This document shows, one piece after another, positions 21,851 through 42,670 of a DNA stretch of 64,000 nucleotides; the stretch's first letter is position 1, and the number at the start of each line of letters is the position of its first letter. The notes below the pieces were generated by a model, which was not told where the DNA came from, did not search any database, and saw only the letters and a program-made list of their open reading frames with translations. Origin of the DNA: Halobellus sp. LT62 (GTDB lineage: Archaea > Halobacteriota > Halobacteria > Halobacteriales > Haloferacaceae). The DNA is taken from the NCBI RefSeq assembly GCF_037031285.1, contig NZ_JAYEZO010000002.1, positions 248,001 to 312,000 on the forward strand, written 5' to 3'. Position numbers and translations under genes: made by a program.

Positions 21851-22324
21851 TGTCCCCAATCGGAGCCGAACGGCGAAAAGAACCACGGGTACGCGTCGGC
21901 GCTCCGGTGTACGATAGACGCGACGCTCGTCGTGCCGGACATCGGACCGATCGGACCGAGGCGGAGGCCGCCCCCACGGCTGCCGAGTCGGCGAGTCGCC
22001 ACCTGCTCGCCGCTCAATCGCCGCCGTCCCGCCCGCTTTTACGGCTCTTTCGGCTGGCGAACAGTCGGCACCCGCACGAGAACTCCCGAGGTGGTTCGCC
22101 CCGTCGAACCGTTTCCCGGCTCTCTCCCTCCCACGCCGACGTGCCGAACAACCGCGAAGCGGCGCGGGCTGATACTTATAGTAGCATTTGCAACTGATTA
22201 CTCACACCCGGGATGGCCCCGCCATCCGATATGAACGTTCGTCTCCCGTCGATCCCGCTTCGTCGGTTCCTCGACCGCTCGATGTCGACGGGGATTTTTA
22301 TCCGATGCCGGGCTCAGTTCTGCT
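21851..22324. other. Intergenic region with a relic of the 39-kb palindromic element
   Basis: These 474 bases have no supported gene. They contain, at 22176-22203, a fragment nearly identical to one end of the nested palindrome at 39209-39292. The TATA box of the following phosphohexomutase gene (GATTTTTATCC near 22292-22302) lies close to its ATG. The rest is GC-rich non-coding sequence. Confidence 0.55.
22176..22203 (+). repeat. Truncated copy of a palindromic intergenic element
   Basis: The 17 bases TATAGTAGCATTTGCAA are identical to each inverted arm of the element at 39209-39292. The next 11 bases match its reverse strand with one mismatch, so 27 of 28 positions agree. The partner arm is missing here, so this is a solo end or relic. 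Confidence 0.8.
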
Positions 22325-35383: not shown

Positions 35384-37495
35384 ATGGCGCAGGCCCCCCA
35401 GGACTCACGCGACCTCACCGAGCGGTTCATCCAGTTCTACCGCAAGTACTACCGCGACGAGATCGGTACGCTCGCGCAGAAGTACCCGAACGAACAGCGC
35501 TCGCTGTACGTCGATTACGACGACCTCTACGCGTTCGACACCGAGTTGGCGGAAGATTACCGACAGAAGCCCGACCAGATCCGCGAGTACGCCGAAGAGG
35601 CGCTGCGACTCTACGACCTCCCCGCGGACGTCAAACTCGGCCGCGCGCACGTCCGGCTGACGAATCTCCCCGAGACGGTCGACATCCGCGGCATCCGCGT
35701 TCACGACGACCACATCGGGCGGATGATCGCCGTGCAGGGCATCGTCCGCAAGGCGACGGACGTCCGGCCGAAGATCACGGAGGCCGCCTTCGAGTGCCAG
35801 CGCTGCGGGACGATGACGTACATCCCGCAGGCCGACAGCGGCTTCCAGGAACCGCACGAGTGCCAAGGGTGTGAGCGTCAGGGGCCGTTCCACGTCGACT
35901 TCGACCAATCGGAGTTCGTCGACGCGCAAAAGGTGCGCGTCCAAGAGAGCCCCGAGGGCCTGCGGGGCGGCGAGACGCCACAGAGCATCGATGTCGACCT
36001 CGAAGACGACGTCACCGGCAGGGTAACCGCCGGCGACCACGTCATCGTGACCGGCGTCCTCCACATCGAACAGCAGACCTCCGGCAACGAGAAGACGCCG
36101 ATCTTCGATCTCTATATGGACGGGGTCGCCGTCGAGATCGAAGATGAGGAGTTCGAGGATATGGACATCACCGACGAGGACGTCGCCGAGATCGTCGACC
36201 TCTCGAACGAACCCGACATCTACGAGAAGATGGTCGACTCCGTCGCGCCCTCGATCTACGGCTACGAGCAGGAGAAGCTCGCGATGATCCTCCAGCTCTT
36301 TTCGGGCGTGACGAAACACCTCCCCGACGGCTCGCGGACCCGCGGCGACCTGCATATGCTTCTCATCGGGGACCCGGGTACGGGGAAGTCCGCGATGCTC
36401 CAGTACATCCGGAACATCGCACCGCGATCGGTCTACACCTCCGGGAAAGGTAGTTCCTCGGCAGGTCTCACCGCGGCGGCCGTCCGCGACGATTTCGGCG
36501 ACGGCCAGCAGTGGACGCTCGAAGCCGGCGCGCTCGTCTTGGCCGACAAGGGGATCGCGGCTGTCGACGAACTGGATAAAATGCGCTCGGAGGATCGAAG
36601 CGCAATGCACGAAGCGCTGGAACAGCAATCTATTTCCGTATCAAAGGCCGGCATCAACGCGACCCTGAAATCCCGGTGTTCGCTGCTCGGCGCGGCGAAC
36701 CCGAAGTACGGACGCTTCGATCAGTACGAGCCGATCGGCGAGCAGATCGACCTCGAACCCGCGCTGATCTCCCGATTCGACCTGATCTTCACGGTCACCG
36801 ACAACCCCGATCCGGAGTCCGACGCCAAGCTCGCAGACCACATCATCAACACGAACTACGCCGGGGAGTTGCACACGCAGAAGACGAAGGTGCCGAGCTC
36901 GGAGTTCACCGACGAGGAGATCGAGAACGCGACCGAGGAGGTCACGCCCGTGATCGACGCCGAGCTCCTGCGGAAGTACATCGCCTACGCCAAGCGCAAC
37001 TGCTATCCGACGATGACCGACGAAGCGAAAGAAGTCATTCGGGACTTCTACGTCGACTTCCGGGCGAAGGGAGCCGACGACGACGCCCCGGTTCCCGTCA
37101 CTGCCCGGAAACTCGAAGCGCTCGTGCGGCTCTCGGAGGCGTCGGCACGGCTCCGCCTCTCCGACACGGTCGAGCGCGAGGACGCCGTCCGCGTCACCGA
37201 GATCGTCGAGTCCTGCCTCCGCGACATCGGAATGGACCCCGAAACCGGAGAGTTCGACGCGGATATCGTCGAGACGGGGACCTCGAAGAATCAGCGCGAC
37301 CGGATCAAGGACATCAAGCACCTCATCGAGGAGCTCGAAGACGAGTACGAGGAGGGCGCGCCGGTCGACGAGGTTATCGATCGGGCGGGCACAGACCTCG
37401 GCTTGGACGAGTCGAAAGCCGAAGACGAGATCGAGAACCTCAAACGAAAGGGCGAGCTCTACGAACCGCGGAAGAACTACCTGAGGACGACGTAA
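35384..37495 (+). CDS. mcm: Replicative DNA helicase MCM
   Basis: A 703-residue AAA+ helicase forming a hexamer that unwinds DNA ahead of the fork. The N-terminal domain has a zinc ribbon (CQRCG and CQGCE, residues ~143-170). The AAA+ domain has Walker A GDPGTGKSAMLQYI, Walker B GIAAVDELDKM, sensor 1 LGAANPKYGRFD and the arginine finger LISRFDLIF. The C-terminal winged helix is at 630-700. It carries no intein, unlike some haloarchaeal mcm genes. Its stop codon shares a base with the next start (TAATG), so the following gene is coupled to it. Confidence 0.97.
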   Translation: MAQAPQDSRDLTERFIQFYRKYYRDEIGTLAQKYPNEQRSLYVDYDDLYAFDTELAEDYRQKPDQIREYAEEALRLYDLPADVKLGRAHVRLTNLPETVDIRGIRVHDDHIGRMIAVQGIVRKATDVRPKITEAAFECQRCGTMTYIPQADSGFQEPHECQGCERQGPFHVDFDQSEFVDAQKVRVQESPEGLRGGETPQSIDVDLEDDVTGRVTAGDHVIVTGVLHIEQQTSGNEKTPIFDLYMDGVAVEIEDEEFEDMDITDEDVAEIVDLSNEPDIYEKMVDSVAPSIYGYEQEKLAMILQLFSGVTKHLPDGSRTRGDLHMLLIGDPGTGKSAMLQYIRNIAPRSVYTSGKGSSSAGLTAAAVRDDFGDGQQWTLEAGALVLADKGIAAVDELDKMRSEDRSAMHEALEQQSISVSKAGINATLKSRCSLLGAANPKYGRFDQYEPIGEQIDLEPALISRFDLIFTVTDNPDPESDAKLADHIINTNYAGELHTQKTKVPSSEFTDEEIENATEEVTPVIDAELLRKYIAYAKRNCYPTMTDEAKEVIRDFYVDFRAKGADDDAPVPVTARKLEALVRLSEASARLRLSDTVEREDAVRVTEIVESCLRDIGMDPETGEFDADIVETGTSKNQRDRIKDIKHLIEELEDEYEEGAPVDEVIDRAGTDLGLDESKAEDEIENLKRKGELYEPRKNYLRTT

Positions 37496-37779
37496 TGGAT
37501 CGGATTTCCGCACTCCGGAACGTCGAAGAGGCGCTCGGCGACTTCGAGTCCGGCGACTCGGACCTCGCGGCGACCGAGCAGCGCGTCGTGACGATTCTCC
37601 GCACGTACGCGACCGAGTTCGAGAGCGAGGACGGACTCCGTGCGTACCAAGCGACCGGCGAGGGCCGAGCGCACGGCCTCGTCGTCGTCGCCGAGAGCGC
37701 CCCCGAAGCGCGCGAGCGGATTGCCGACCTGCTCGACGAGGACCCGGCCGTCCTCGACGTCGATATCTCTCCGGTGTGA
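37495..37779 (+). CDS. Small conserved haloarchaeal protein coupled to mcm
   Basis: A 94-residue acidic protein, MDRISALRNVEEALGDFE onward, with an alpha-helical start, a central strand AHGLVVVAESAPEARERIADL and an end VLDVDISPV. Its ATG overlaps the mcm stop by one base, which argues for cotranslation. I recall a haloarchaeal DUF (DUF7854 or near) with this neighbourhood but cannot confirm the number. Function is unknown. Confidence 0.82.
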   Translation: MDRISALRNVEEALGDFESGDSDLAATEQRVVTILRTYATEFESEDGLRAYQATGEGRAHGLVVVAESAPEARERIADLLDEDPAVLDVDISPV

Positions 37780-37836
37780 GTCGGTTTCGCCGATGTGGAT
37801 GGGTTTTTACCACCCCCGCGAAATAGGCTCGTAACC

Positions 37837-38175
37837 GTGTTGTTGGTGGTGACGTACTCGCGCCGGGCGCGCGAGACGCTGCGGAACGCCTGTCGATCGC
37901 ACGAGGAGACCGTCGTCAGACGGTTCGGCCGCGCCGCGCTGTTGCGGGAGACGGAGTACGGCGCGTTCTTGGCGTGTCGGCTTCGGGAGCGACACGCCGG
38001 GAACGTCCAGATCGAACGCACCGAGCCGTTCAACGAGTTCGCCGACGCGCCCGATACCGTTCGCGAGGCTGCGAGCGCCTACGAGAACCGCGAGTCGCCG
38101 AGCACGCCGTACGACAGGTTCGCTGCCGGGACCGATCATCCGACGTCCGACGCGATGCGAGAGCGGGAACTGTGA
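37837..38175 (+). CDS. Conserved haloarchaeal protein of the post-mcm cluster
   Basis: A 112-residue protein, LLVVTYSRRARETLRNACRS onward, with RRFGRAALLRETEYGAFLAC and the tail TPYDRFAAGTDHPTS. I start at the GTG at 37837, since the conserved-looking strand begins there. The upstream ATG frame is GC-poor and lies in promoter-like sequence (GGGTTTTTACC). Its stop overlaps the GTG of the next gene. No known domain. Confidence 0.8.
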   Translation: MLLVVTYSRRARETLRNACRSHEETVVRRFGRAALLRETEYGAFLACRLRERHAGNVQIERTEPFNEFADAPDTVREAASAYENRESPSTPYDRFAAGTDHPTSDAMREREL

Positions 38176-39140
38176 GTAGTGACGGGGCGGACGTCGGCGA
38201 GACGGTCGTTTCCGGCGTCCCGAGCTTCACGCTCCGCTTGCCGAACGGCCGCGTCGAAGACGGACCGGTCGTCGACCTCCGCGGCGACGCGTCCGAAATT
38301 CCGACGGGATCACAACTCCGGCGCGCAGTCCGGGTTGGCTGTCCGACCCGCCCGACCTCGCCGACCGTTTACTCCGTTCGCCCCGGTCGGGCTCACGCGC
38401 ACGTCGCCTCCCTCGGCCCTGATACCGCGATCCGATCGCGCGCCGCGCTCGCGGCGGTTGCAGTCGACATCGGGATCGAGACGCCGCACGACGACGACCT
38501 CGTCGACGCGCTGCGGTCGCTCCGAGCGCTCTCGCCCGCGCCGATCGACGACGCGGAACTGCGAGCGGCGCGCCGCCGGGCCGCCGTCGCCGGGGCCGAG
38601 ACCGACCGCCTTCGAGAGCGAGTCGCGACCGTCCGCGGTCGGGTAACCGCGCTCCGAGAGGCCGCGGCCGATGACGTCGCGGCCGATGACGCTGCGACTG
38701 CCCCGAGTCCCGACGAGGCGTTGACCGAGGCGGAGGCGGCGCTGTCGGATCTGACGCGACAGCTCTCGGAGGTGGCGACCGAACGGGTCGCGGCCGCACA
38801 GCGACTTCGATTGCTCGAACGACGGACCCGGTCCGCCCGCGATCAGCGCAATGCGCGGATTCGGCTCGAAGACCGCGTCGAAAACTGCAGGCGACGGGTT
38901 CGGGCCGCCCACATCGACGCCGTTTCCGACGCCTTTCGCGACGCGCGAGCGGAGCTGGATCGGTGGATCGTCGGCGACGTCGTTCCGGAGGCCGATACGT
39001 CGGAACTCCTCGATGCGCTCGCCGTGGCCCGGCTCGCACCGATCCGCGCACCGCTGCTCGTCGTCGGCGACGTCGCCGACGCCCTCGGCGGTCCCGACGC
39101 GGCGTTCGACCGACTCGGTGCGCCGCTGATACTCCGATAG
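38172..39140 (+). CDS. Coiled-coil protein of the post-mcm cluster
   Basis: A 322-residue protein starting at a GTG that overlaps the previous stop (GTGA). The N-terminal ~100 residues look globular (SGVPSFTLRLPNGRVEDGPV, SVRPGRAHAHVASLG). Residues ~135-250 are Ala/Arg/Glu-rich and predicted to form a coiled coil. The C-terminus is compact with LLVVGDVADALGGPDAAFD. No catalytic motif is seen. Coupling suggests a complex with the neighbouring small proteins. Confidence 0.78.
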   Translation: MSSDGADVGETVVSGVPSFTLRLPNGRVEDGPVVDLRGDASEIPTGSQLRRAVRVGCPTRPTSPTVYSVRPGRAHAHVASLGPDTAIRSRAALAAVAVDIGIETPHDDDLVDALRSLRALSPAPIDDAELRAARRRAAVAGAETDRLRERVATVRGRVTALREAAADDVAADDAATAPSPDEALTEAEAALSDLTRQLSEVATERVAAAQRLRLLERRTRSARDQRNARIRLEDRVENCRRRVRAAHIDAVSDAFRDARAELDRWIVGDVVPEADTSELLDALAVARLAPIRAPLLVVGDVADALGGPDAAFDRLGAPLILR

Positions 39141-39208
39141 CGCGCCGTCGACGGGTCGGCGGGCGTCCGCCGGAACCGCCATCGATCGAGCCGTCGACCG
39201 ACGCCGAC

Positions 39209-39292
39209 TATAGTAGCATTTGCAAGTCTTCGCCCATCCGATCGCACGACAGCGTGCGATCGGATGAGCAATCAGTTGCAAATGCTACTATA
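39209..39292. repeat. 84-bp nested palindromic element
   Basis: Perfect 17-base outer inverted repeats, TATAGTAGCATTTGCAA at 39209-39225 and its complement at 39276-39292, flank a perfect 13-base inner stem. CATCCGATCGCAC (39235-39247) pairs with its complement (39254-39266) around a six-base loop. It has no ORF. A one-ended relic lies at 22176-22203. The right arm adjoins a TATATTTATATA box that probably drives the gene at 39323. It is best explained as a non-autonomous mobile element or a mobile promoter/terminator module. Confidence 0.85.
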
Positions 39293-39300
39293 TTTATATA
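39288..39300 (+). promoter_or_regulatory. TATA box at the edge of the palindromic element
   Basis: TATATTTATATA overlaps the last bases of the right inverted arm and lies about 28 bases before the GTG at 39323. Insertion of the palindrome may therefore have created or reshaped this promoter. Confidence 0.55.
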
Positions 39301-39322
39301 CTATCGGGCGGCCAGAGCGGGC

Positions 39323-40234
39323 GTGCAACTCTCTCTCGACGCGACCGGTCCCGACGCCGCCGGTCAGATCGATGAACCGCGATCGCCCGGGAACGGTCCG
39401 CTCGAACCGACGGTTTCGACGCGGTCGGTCGCGGGTGTCACGCTCGTTTGGATCGAGCTCCGCAGTACCGTCGCCGTCGACGTGCGCGTCCGGATCCGGA
39501 ACGAACTTGACGGTCCGATCCTCCCGCCGCGAGCGGCTGGCGTTCCGGCGACCGGGTGGGACGCAGACGGCTTCAGTGGAGCCGTTCCGGGTTCCGGATC
39601 TCTCGGCGTCGGCTACGCCTGTCCGGCGTCGTCGCCGCCGGACGGATCGGACGCGACTGCCGTCTCGATCGAGGTTCTCGGTCCTGTAGACGGGTGTGAA
39701 CTGGCCTCGGACGGCACGGCGGACGAGAAATCGTCCGACTCGGTGACGGCCGCGATTCGTTCGCTCGGCCGCGCGCGACCGCCTGCCGATGTCGTCGTGG
39801 GAGAACCGGGGTTCAACGCGGACGACTCCCTCGTGGGTCTGGAACCGGACGAATCGGCTGGACGTGACGGGTCCGCTGCCGACGCGGTTCCGGTCGCGGT
39901 CGAAGCGTGGCTCGACGCCGTCGAAACGCGCGTCGAACACGCCGAACGGCTGACTGACGCCACGGCCGCGGACGCGACGGCGGTGCTCGCCGACCGCGGC
40001 GGTGCCGACGCGCTCGTCGGCCTCCCGGAGGCGATCGCGGCCGACGAAGCGACGCTGCGGGCCGTCGCGTCTCGCGTGGCCGACCTCGCTGACCGCGCCG
40101 ACGCGACTGACGCCGCGCCCGTCGTGTCGTCGCTGTCGGCAGCGGCCGAGACGCGATGCGATCCCAACGCGGAGTCGGCGACCGAGAGGCGAGCCGGCCC
40201 CGAGGCCGAATCGATGAGCGGAGGCGAGCCGTGA
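39323..40234 (+). CDS. Haloarchaeal protein preceding MinD in the post-mcm cluster
   Basis: A 303-residue protein starting at a GTG. The N-terminal ~120 residues are beta-rich (VAGVTLVWIELRSTVAVDVR, VRIRNELDGPILPPR, PGSGSLGVGYACP), like an immunoglobulin-type sandwich. The rest is Ala/Asp-rich and helical (AVEAWLDAVETRVEHAERL). No signal peptide is present, so it is probably cytoplasmic. Its stop overlaps the GTG start of the MinD gene by four bases, implying that the two act together. Confidence 0.78.
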   Translation: MQLSLDATGPDAAGQIDEPRSPGNGPLEPTVSTRSVAGVTLVWIELRSTVAVDVRVRIRNELDGPILPPRAAGVPATGWDADGFSGAVPGSGSLGVGYACPASSPPDGSDATAVSIEVLGPVDGCELASDGTADEKSSDSVTAAIRSLGRARPPADVVVGEPGFNADDSLVGLEPDESAGRDGSAADAVPVAVEAWLDAVETRVEHAERLTDATAADATAVLADRGGADALVGLPEAIAADEATLRAVASRVADLADRADATDAAPVVSSLSAAAETRCDPNAESATERRAGPEAESMSGGEP

Positions 40235-40899
40235 TCGTCGCCGTCACCGGCGGCAAGGGCGGCGTCGGCAAGTCGACGGTCTCGGTGGAGCTCGGTGCCG
40301 CGCTCGACGCCACTGTCGTCGACGCCGACCTCGGAATGGCGGATCTGCCGACCGGCCCCGGTCCGGACCTCCACGACGTTCTCGCCGATCGGGCGGATCC
40401 GGTCGAAGCGGTTCGGGAGGGATGCGGTCCCGTTCGGTTGCTCCCGTGCGGCCGCTCGCTCGCGGGCGCTCGGGCGGCCGACGTCGCCGCGCTCGACCGG
40501 ACGCTCCGCGCGATCGAGGCAGCCTACGGCGACGTCGTCGTCGACTGTCCGGCCGGGATGAAAGCCGACGCGGGCGTTCCCCTCGCCGTCGCGGACGCCT
40601 GCGTGATCGTGGCGTCGCCGCAGTCGTACGCGCTGGCTGACGCGGTCCGCTCGCGAGCGCTCGCCCGCGAACTCGACGCCGGACTCGTCGGCGTCGTGAT
40701 CAACCGGGCCGTCGACGATCCGCCGACGGAGGCGTTCGAGGACGTGCTCGGTGCGCCCGCCGTCGTCGTTCCCGCCGACCCGCGTGTGGGTCAGACGGTG
40801 GCCTCGTTCCGCCCGGTCGTCCGATCCGCGCCGTCGACGCGGGCGGCCCGCGAGCTGACGACCGTTGCGGATGCTGTGCGTCGGGCAAAGCGGGTCTGA
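40231..40899 (+). CDS. MinD/ParA family P-loop ATPase
   Basis: A 222-residue protein with an intact deviant Walker A, VTGGKGGVGKST, at the N-terminus, a switch I region VVDADLGMADLP, and the switch II-like VVVDCPAGMKADAGVPLAVA. Such ATPases dimerise on ATP and position cell-division, motility or chromosome machinery. The start GTG overlaps the previous stop. A C-terminal membrane-targeting helix is not obvious. The gene is last in a run that begins with mcm. Confidence 0.9.
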   Translation: MIVAVTGGKGGVGKSTVSVELGAALDATVVDADLGMADLPTGPGPDLHDVLADRADPVEAVREGCGPVRLLPCGRSLAGARAADVAALDRTLRAIEAAYGDVVVDCPAGMKADAGVPLAVADACVIVASPQSYALADAVRSRALARELDAGLVGVVINRAVDDPPTEAFEDVLGAPAVVVPADPRVGQTVASFRPVVRSAPSTRAARELTTVADAVRRAKRV

Positions 40900-40993
40900 G
40901 TTGGTCTGGCCTGACCCACGTTACTCCGCGAACTGAGACCTGAGACCTGAGAACTGCGTTCGTCGCTGCCCGACCGTAGTCGAAACTGTCGTC

Positions 40994-41088
40994 GTTACTC
41001 GCCGTCGCTGAAAACGGTCGCCGTTACTCGCCGTCGCTGAAAACGGTCGCCGTTACTCGCCGTCGCTGAAAACGGTCGCCGTTACTCG
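40994..41088. repeat. 29-bp tandem repeat, three exact copies plus a partial
   Basis: Exact copies lie at 40994-41022, 41023-41051 and 41052-41080. Each begins GTTACTCGCCGTCGC and ends ACGGTCGCC. A fourth, 8-base partial copy runs into the stop codon of the TFB gene at 41082. The repeat probably grew by slippage from the end of that gene. A weaker seven-base repeat (GAGACCT) occurs just before it near 40935. It is not a CRISPR array because there are no spacers. Confidence 0.9.
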
Positions 41089-41984
41089 TCTTCGCGGAGC
41101 TGTTGGTACGTCGACCGTAGCGTCACCGGCGTCACGTCCGCGACGTCGGCGGCCTCCTGTTGCGTCAGTCCCGCACCGAGGTCGCGCCCGGCGGTGTACA
41201 GGCACGCGGCCGCGACGCCGCCGGGATTTCTGCCGATCGAGATCCCGCGGTCGGCGGCTTCCTCGACGTAGTCGCGCGCGAGCCGTTCCACCTCGCCCGA
41301 GAGGTCGAGCTGGGAGGCGAACCGCGCGAGGTACTCCGCCGGATCGATCGGGCCGACCGGCAGTCCGAGTTCACGGTTGATCGCGTCGTAGGCAGCGGTC
41401 TGCTCGCTCTTCGTCGCTTTCGCGACGTCGGCGACCTCGCTCACCGTCCGCGAGACGCTGGCGACGCGGCAGGCGGCGTACACGGACGCCGCGGCGAACC
41501 CCTCCAGCGAGCGCCCGCAACAGAGATCCTTCGACTGGGCGGAGCGGAACAGCGAGCAGGCGTGGTCGCGGATCCGGTCCGGGAGCGAGAGGACGCTCGT
41601 GAGCCGACGGATCTCGGTGAACGCGTACACCTGATTGCGCTCGCGCTTCGTCGAGATCCGCGCGCGGTTGTGTTGCCGGCGCATCCGCGCGAGCTGTCGG
41701 CGCTTGCGACCCTTCACGCGCGTTGACCGACCGATTTTCGTCGAGAGGCCCTTGTCGTGTCGCGAGCGCGTCAGCGGCGCGCCCGTCCGCTTCGGGTCGG
41801 TGTCGGAGTCGGCGAAGGAGCGCCAGTCCGGGCCGTGGTCGATTCGGTACTCCGAGAGGACGAGCCCGCACTCGCCACAGAGCGTCTCGCCGCGGGCGGT
41901 CTCGGGGCGACCCCCGCACTCGGGACAGACGTTGGTCGTATTGGTTGCGTCGGCGGTGGCGTCGGCGGTGGGTGCTCCACTCAT
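41082..41984 (-). CDS. tfb: Transcription initiation factor TFB (TFIIB)
   Basis: A 300-residue general transcription factor. The N-terminal zinc ribbon has CPECGG and CGECG, the B-finger/linker follows (DWRSFADSDTDPKRTGAPLT), and two cyclin repeats begin near RRLTSVLSLPDRIRD and EYLARFASQLDLSGE. The second ends in the helix-turn-helix GLTQQEAADVADVTPVTLRS that reads the BRE. Haloarchaea encode many TFBs with different promoter sets. I start at the ATG at 41982-41984; a GTG lies one codon upstream. A strong TATA box precedes it. Confidence 0.95.
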   Translation of the reverse strand: MSGAPTADATADATNTTNVCPECGGRPETARGETLCGECGLVLSEYRIDHGPDWRSFADSDTDPKRTGAPLTRSRHDKGLSTKIGRSTRVKGRKRRQLARMRRQHNRARISTKRERNQVYAFTEIRRLTSVLSLPDRIRDHACSLFRSAQSKDLCCGRSLEGFAAASVYAACRVASVSRTVSEVADVAKATKSEQTAAYDAINRELGLPVGPIDPAEYLARFASQLDLSGEVERLARDYVEEAADRGISIGRNPGGVAAACLYTAGRDLGAGLTQQEAADVADVTPVTLRSTYQQLREDE

Positions 41985-42009
41985 CACAATTGAAACTCGG
42001 TCGCGAAGC

Positions 42010-42021
42010 CATATTTAAAGA
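42010..42021 (-). promoter_or_regulatory. TATA box of the TFB gene
   Basis: The minus strand reads CTTTAAATATGG, with its centre about 31 bases upstream of the TFB start codon. Confidence 0.6.
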
Positions 42022-42148
42022 CGTGAGAAAACGGGGCTTTGACCCACTATTCCGGGGTACAAACCAACCGGTAACCGGTGGGTTATAAAATTCAACTCTG
42101 ATAATAGGTGCGAACCCTCTTATCCGAACGGGTGGACACACGCACACG

Positions 42149-42670
42149 ATGGGTTTGTCGGAAATCGCTGCGGGGTTGGAACTGACGACGAAGCAGAGAG
42201 AGCGCGGCGTCGCGACCGTCGACGACACGGACGTCGACCTCGACGCGCGGCTCCGCGAGTACGAAGCGGACCTCCCGTGTACGGCCGCGGGAGCGGCGAC
42301 AGCTCTCGAAGAGTACAATGCGGGCGCGAGCGTCGGCGACGCTGGAGAGGCCGCGGCGCTCGCGCCGGTCACCGCGGCGAAGCTCCTGCACCGGTGCGGG
42401 TTCGAGGGCGTGACGCCGCTGTCGCCGACGGCCCGCCGCGTGCTCCGCGACTGGATCGACGGGCGAGTGTCGCGCGCGGACGCGCTGGAACTCACCGGCG
42501 CGGACGAGGCGGAGTTCGCCCTCGCCGCCTACGTCGAGACGCACGACCCGATCACCGAACTCGCAGAAGCCGTCCGACGCGACGCCTCCGCGCCGCTCGC
42601 CGGCGACGCCTTGGTGTCGAAACGCGACGCGCTCGCGGAGACGATGAGCGGCAGTGCCGATCTCCGGTAA
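42149..42670 (+). CDS. Conserved haloarchaeal protein of the post-mcm/TFB cluster
   Basis: A 173-residue acidic, mostly helical protein, MGLSEIAAGLELTTKQRERG onward, with CTAAGAATALEEYNAGASVG and HRCGFEGVTPLSPTARRVLR. It may contain a helix-turn-helix-like region around residues 75-115, but this is weak. It is divergent from TFB and convergent with a ParA-like gene. Probably one of the uncharacterised DUF785x-type haloarchaeal families. Function is unknown. Confidence 0.78.
   Translation: MGLSEIAAGLELTTKQRERGVATVDDTDVDLDARLREYEADLPCTAAGAATALEEYNAGASVGDAGEAAALAPVTAAKLLHRCGFEGVTPLSPTARRVLRDWIDGRVSRADALELTGADEAEFALAAYVETHDPITELAEAVRRDASAPLAGDALVSKRDALAETMSGSADLR

Follow-up and report, generated by a model that had tools for sequence, protein, structure and literature searches.

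Background

What is the 84-bp palindrome at 39209-39292 in the gene run behind mcm of Halobellus sp. LT62, and how did it come to stand directly in front of a TATA box? An earlier note, made on the 64,000-nucleotide stretch analysed here (the window), had seen in it either a non-autonomous, MITE-like element or a mobile regulatory module that now carries the promoter of the next gene. Our analysis indicates that the 84 bp very probably consist of an 80-bp non-autonomous MITE, of the IS630/Tc1-mariner kind that targets TA, with one copy of a duplicated TA on either side.

Results and discussion

Structure of the palindrome

The 17-base outer arms described in the earlier note are indeed perfect (39209-39225 and 39276-39292). 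They enclose a central hairpin (39235-39266) with the core GATCGCACG-N4-CGTGCGATC, which is common to elements with other arms. The hairpin stem is perfect as well, at 14 bases rather than the 13 first reported (39235-39248 and 39253-39266, loop ACAG). Between the two 40-base halves of the palindrome complementarity is 88%, and neither half of the 84 bp forms a separate hairpin. Folded as single-stranded DNA, 39209-39292 reaches -35.7 kcal/mol, against a mean of -9.3 for shuffled sequences (z -13), and none of 200 shuffles equalled it. No Rfam family reached its gathering score at the site; mir-341, RNA-OUT and mir-35 were rejected, their scores being far under gathering and reflecting the hairpin shape.

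Each end of the 84 bp is a 28-bp module: a right-type end, TATAGTAG-N13-TCGCCCA, on the forward strand (39209-39236, including the arm 39209-39225), and a left-type end, TATAGTAG-N13-TTGCTCA, on the reverse strand (39265-39292, including the arm 39276-39292). The arm core TAGCATTTGCAA occurs three times in the 64-kb window at up to two mismatches, against 0.21 expected. A solitary end of the same family stands on the forward strand, with 27 of its 28 bases as in the end 39265-39292. This match had been recorded before, at 22176-22203, which we correct to 22177-22204; the supposed relic is one 28-bp end module of the element family.

Copies within the genome

A search of this genome and of other Halobacteria with the arm, as the earlier note had proposed, returned 53 places of the element family in the 3.23-Mb genome and copies in other haloarchaea. 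With a 15-base arm (at most two mismatches), 79 matches were found in the genome (43 + 36), compared with 2 for the reversed pattern. Both arms stand in register at 38 of the 53 places; the arm statistics omit the other 15, several of which are by eye full out-of-register copies and about seven one-ended. Exactly 84 bp long are 34 of the 38 in-register copies, and their consensus is TATAGTAGCGTTTGCAACTGATTGCTCATCCGATCGCACG-CTGT-CGTGCGATCGAGTGAGTGAAGACTTGCAAACGCTACTATA, from which the mcm-cluster copy differs at 6 positions. Pairwise identity among the 34 copies averages 83%, that of nearest neighbours 91% (best 97.6%), and on either side sequence conservation breaks off abruptly at the outer TATA. 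The copies are mostly non-coding: among those in fetched loci, 33 of 37 lie outside predicted genes, against 17% expected, a count made with a simple ORF picker and in which stop codons of the element can interrupt ORFs. The places are also clustered, with 8 neighbouring pairs at most 2.5 kb apart against 2.1 expected. Short (80-84 bp), without a transposase gene, present at 53 places and ending in terminal inverted repeats (the 17-bp arms, perfect in the mcm-cluster copy), the element has the general characteristics of a MITE.

The left and right arms within a copy differ by 54 mismatches in total, compared with 78.5 for shuffled pairs. Where a position is altered in both arms, the change is the same in 17 of 19 cases. 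Nine of these 17 shared changes are one G-to-A variant, which may represent a subfamily; the remaining paired changes may have arisen either through hairpin-templated repair or as copies moved repeatedly under matching transposases. Both CTGT (12) and its reverse complement ACAG (7) are found as the central loop, a sign that the centre may have been inverted.

The insertion downstream of mcm

The genes around the site are, in order, mcm, a short ORF, DUF7855, DUF7856, DUF7857 and a ParA/MinD-like ATPase. The upstream neighbour of the palindrome is the DUF7856 gene (38160-39140 on the forward strand, frame as scanned; Pfam PF25254), and the downstream one the DUF7857 gene (39323-40234, forward strand; Pfam PF25256), whose start codon is conserved. 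The TATA box seen earlier next to the right arm is present at 39293-39300 on the forward strand, directly after the arm and 30 nt before the GTG at 39323. The wider post-mcm region (35384-42670) contains the uncharacterised haloarchaeal families DUF7855, DUF7856, DUF7857 and DUF7858 together with the ParA/MinD-like ATPase and a TFIIB-like gene.

Seventeen genomes of the genus were searched for this junction, and 11 syntenic junctions were fetched, the other genomes giving no syntenic match. The earlier note had recommended such an empty-site comparison, and had held that conservation of the sequence at this position would point to a resident regulatory RNA or operator. The element is present at the position in none of the 11 relatives, and all 11 have a TATA-like box and a start codon. 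Since box and start are conserved in relatives without the element, the promoter was not brought by it, and a promoter supplied by the element was rejected, contrary to what had been supposed. The TATA box being ancestral, the element sits immediately upstream of it and changed only the sequence 5' of the box. In archaeal promoters the region 5' of the TATA box holds the BRE.

An operator or RNA resident at the DUF7857 promoter would account for a palindrome directly upstream of a TATA box. Such a resident element is, however, very hard to credit when 11 of 11 syntenic relatives lack it with TATA box and start intact, when it recurs at dozens of unrelated locations and when no Rfam family reaches its gathering score. 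To judge from the aligned junctions, the mcm-cluster copy is instead an insertion specific to this lineage, next to a promoter that was already there. The junction of the nearest relative reads GCGAC-GT-TTTATATAC, compared with GCCGAC-[84 bp]-TTTATATAC in this genome, so only two junction bases would belong to the target. These are GT in the nearest relative, not TA; the length of the junction also fits TA insertion with a 2-bp duplication.

Signs of a TA duplication

That no clear target-site duplication had been seen in the earlier note is understandable, because the duplication is apparently just TA and merges with the palindrome; an apparent TA duplication is nevertheless present. In Halobellus sp. 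DFY28, a plasmid copy separates what are annotated as two pieces of a single sugar-nucleotidyltransferase gene. When 82 of the 84 bp are removed and one TA is kept, the frame reads HVFEQLVGLGIS and aligns gap-free with HCFEQLAELGAD of Halorussus salilacus. In Haloferax gibbonsii, the flanks of a copy, CCCGC-TA[...]TA-GTCTTGCAC, match CTTCTA-C-GTCTTGCAC at one Haloferax locus (L423) and CCCTCTA at another (L422); a third Haloferax relative (L413) has CTGA at the corresponding site. The split gene and the Haloferax empty site, few sites as they are, fit both the target-site duplication of MITEs and the TA insertion of IS630/Tc1-mariner elements, with an element of 80 bp. From these two cases and the mcm junction we infer TA copies at 39209-39210 and 39291-39292, and the mobile element proper, a near-complete palindrome, would be 39211-39290. 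When plasmids were searched for other empty sites, no usable one was found for the H. mediterranei and Halomontanus copies, the Haloarcula copy in the plasmid search is common to both H. hispanica strains, and a second Haloferax search gave no across-junction match from an element-free genome.

At any single site, an element of 80 bp that duplicated TA looks just like an 82-bp unit without a duplication. An 82-bp unit beside TA would look the same if it were a REP/REPIN-like palindrome, moved by a Y1 transposase (RAYT or IS200/IS605-type) that leaves no duplication, and the element does resemble REP/REPIN sequences in being a dispersed, intergenic palindrome with GTAG near each end. It differs from them in having terminal repeats of 17 bp that are symmetric, TATA at either outer end, 28-bp ends of the DDE type resembling IS630, signs of TA duplication, and halves that do not each have a REP hairpin of their own, and we regard this origin as quite improbable. 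The 80-bp element with a TA duplication is favoured over the 82-bp unit because its ends are symmetric.

Likeness of the ends to IS630

In Halobellus limi, two transposons that encode a DDE_3 domain (PF13358) were aligned with each other; they have about 1,060 bp between ends that read TATAGTAG-TGGTTAGAAATAG-TTGCTCA and TATA(G/A)TAT-CCGGTAGAATTTT-TTACTCA; the H. limi plasmid record [RefSeq:NZ_CP031313.1] annotates the gene as an IS630 family transposase. The left end of the element, TATAGTAG-CGTTTGCAACTGA-TTGCTCA (here 39265-39292), agrees with the first H. limi end at 21 of 28 positions. It also agrees at 21 of 28 positions with the consensus of 24 IS630 end pairs, and none of 200,000 shuffles reached its match beyond the first two bases; this consensus is biased, since the selecting pattern largely fixes positions 1-8 and 22-28, and counts one IS630 twice (L377 and L103 denote one place). 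The H. limi copies are free of the pattern bias, their limits being set by their own alignment. As to polarity, the left end fits the left and right IS630 consensus alike (21/28), while the right end matches the right consensus at 19 positions and the left at 18; the homology of polarity is therefore weak.

The element thus shares with haloarchaeal IS630, such as that of H. limi, ends of the form TATAGTAG/T-N13-TTGCTCA or TTACTCA with the same spacing. In contrast to these transposons, with their roughly 1,060 bp and a transposase gene, the element has 80 bp and no gene, and the middle of the end is GTTTGCAA instead of GTTAGAA. For ISY100, a bacterial relative of IS630, PMC2170065 describes a transposase that acts alone and inserts almost only at TA, duplicating it, and gives 24-bp ends as the likely minimum. 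Many haloarchaeal IS630 copies (for example, L103:1438-2452) have an open frame of 175-187 aa and, after it, the DDE domain in a different frame, and this arrangement may represent a frameshift-expressed transposase.

We propose that a transposase supplied in trans would recognise both 28-bp ends (TATAGTAG-N13-TTGCTCA type), excise the element and insert it elsewhere at a TA. Here that TA would have stood just before the TATA box of the gene that follows mcm-DUF7855-DUF7856, and the helper would be an IS630-type gene with TATAGTAGCRTTTGCAA at its ends. We infer such cut-and-paste chemistry, the kind of transposase involved and any influence that the insertion may have on the next gene.

Search for an autonomous partner

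PF13358 has no match in this genome; 11 of the 17 genus genomes have one. With the H. limi IS630 protein as query, 188 of 391 class genomes match, this genome not among them, and none of the 30 loci returned has the arms as transposon ends. The IS630 loci of the genus, scanned for the arms at up to three mismatches, gave just scattered 3-mismatch matches, about the chance expectation, and the divergent IS630 loci from three plasmids include no transposon with the element's arms. Over the length of the element, identity among the H. gibbonsii copies is about 95-99%; PF13358 has no match in this species or in several Haloferax genomes with copies. Phage sequences gave no match to the element either. 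The full-length transposon with the same ends, for which the earlier note had suggested looking, was not found among the loci examined, where IS630 ends are similar (21/28).

Two arm pairs were considered as autonomous partners and rejected. The pair 2.2 kb apart (G245, L125) consists of separate short elements around other genes, and the pair 1.7 kb apart (L193) of separate short elements around a tyrosine-recombinase gene. The best match of this recombinase in the LT62 genome (C1:1585221-1586471) is outside every tabulated place of the element, so it was rejected as helper.

With no helper found here, the element could also be compared to the small mobile repeats (SMRs) of Haloquadratum walsbyi, which have inverted termini and no target duplication and would be unrelated to IS630. 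In PMC3119063, SMR-A and SMR-B resemble the element in size (80-110 bp), inverted ends and high copy number; they are described there as having no target duplication and ends unrelated to transposons. In the present element, by contrast, a TA duplication fits the split gene and the Haloferax site, and the ends resemble IS630. An SMR-like origin is accordingly unlikely. The HqIRS MITEs of the same species, compared by their description in that paper, are like the element non-coding, with inverted ends and a target duplication, and some can move without a functional transposase in the genome; the element differs in being almost wholly palindromic with a conserved centre. In a keyword search of openly licensed literature PMC3119063 was the sole directly relevant one among the matches listed, and no haloarchaeal paper printing the arm or centre sequences was found there.

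The suggestion of a MITE-like, non-autonomous element is supported by the dispersed copies, the 11 orthologous junctions with an ancestral TATA box and no element, the gene-splitting copy and the other TA-fitting case, and the IS630-like ends. Counting against an IS630 MITE are the lack of a transposon with exactly these arms among the loci examined, the absence of PF13358 from this genome, GTTTGCAA in place of GTTAGAA, the small number of TA sites, CTGA in one Haloferax relative and GT at the mcm junction.

Spread and modular build across haloarchaea

Of the 391 class genomes, 38 contain the exact sequence GTAGCRTTTGCAA, as do 19 of 86 genera, some single matches surely being chance, and the exact 17-mer arm was found in 102 stretches of the species-genome collection. 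Among 114 exact arms in haloarchaea, 70 belong to the 84-type, 33 to a 111-type and 5 to longer forms, and 6 are single. Thus 108 of 114 are paired, whereas all 16 non-haloarchaeal matches are single. The 111-bp sister form, found in Halalkalirubrum, archaeon SHRA6 and Halomicroarcula (L127, L128, L144, L126), has the same 17-bp arms around another foldable centre; the central hairpin accompanies none of its 33 arms, compared with 64 of the 70 arms of the 84-type.

The centre GATCGCACG-N4-CGTGCGATC (at most one mismatch) occurs in 48 of 391 class genomes and the reversed pattern in none, in a centre-first search that selects for the centre. At 21 of 29 centre loci, arms stand at the expected distance with at least 11 of 17 bases complementary; 8 fall below. 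Arms around the shared centre include TATAGTAGAAGTTGAAA and GATACGGACAGTTGTAG, and plasmid copies in Haloarcula, Natronorubrum and Halomontanus combine a similar centre with arms ending TGAAA.

Two kinds of rearranged copy were noted in Halobellus inordinatus. A different short palindrome (TAGGGA...TCCCTA) is nested inside element copies at L166:7128-7292 and L244:2170-2334, and its flanks in L166 suggest a TCA duplication. At L211:864-1011, a copy's right end is repeated 64 bp downstream together with about 20 of the bases that follow it, in the manner of a small tandem duplication.

Most unusual is that one set of arms is found around different centres and one centre between different arms, as though ends and centre were separable modules. 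It is conceivable, though we offer it tentatively, that the elements form an old, Halobacteria-wide modular set with a fixed centre and 84-bp geometry. Their paired arms would have been exchanged or remodelled (TTGCAA, TTGAAA and TTGTA types) to match different transposases, and the centre would persist because it does something itself, such as uniting the ends of so short a DNA or binding a host protein.

Conclusions

This analysis points to a likely mechanism behind a repeat that many haloarchaea carry, and it warns that such palindromes should not be taken for regulatory RNAs. With a shared centre and differing ends, the family would present a case of transposase-less elements that persist when the helper changes or disappears.
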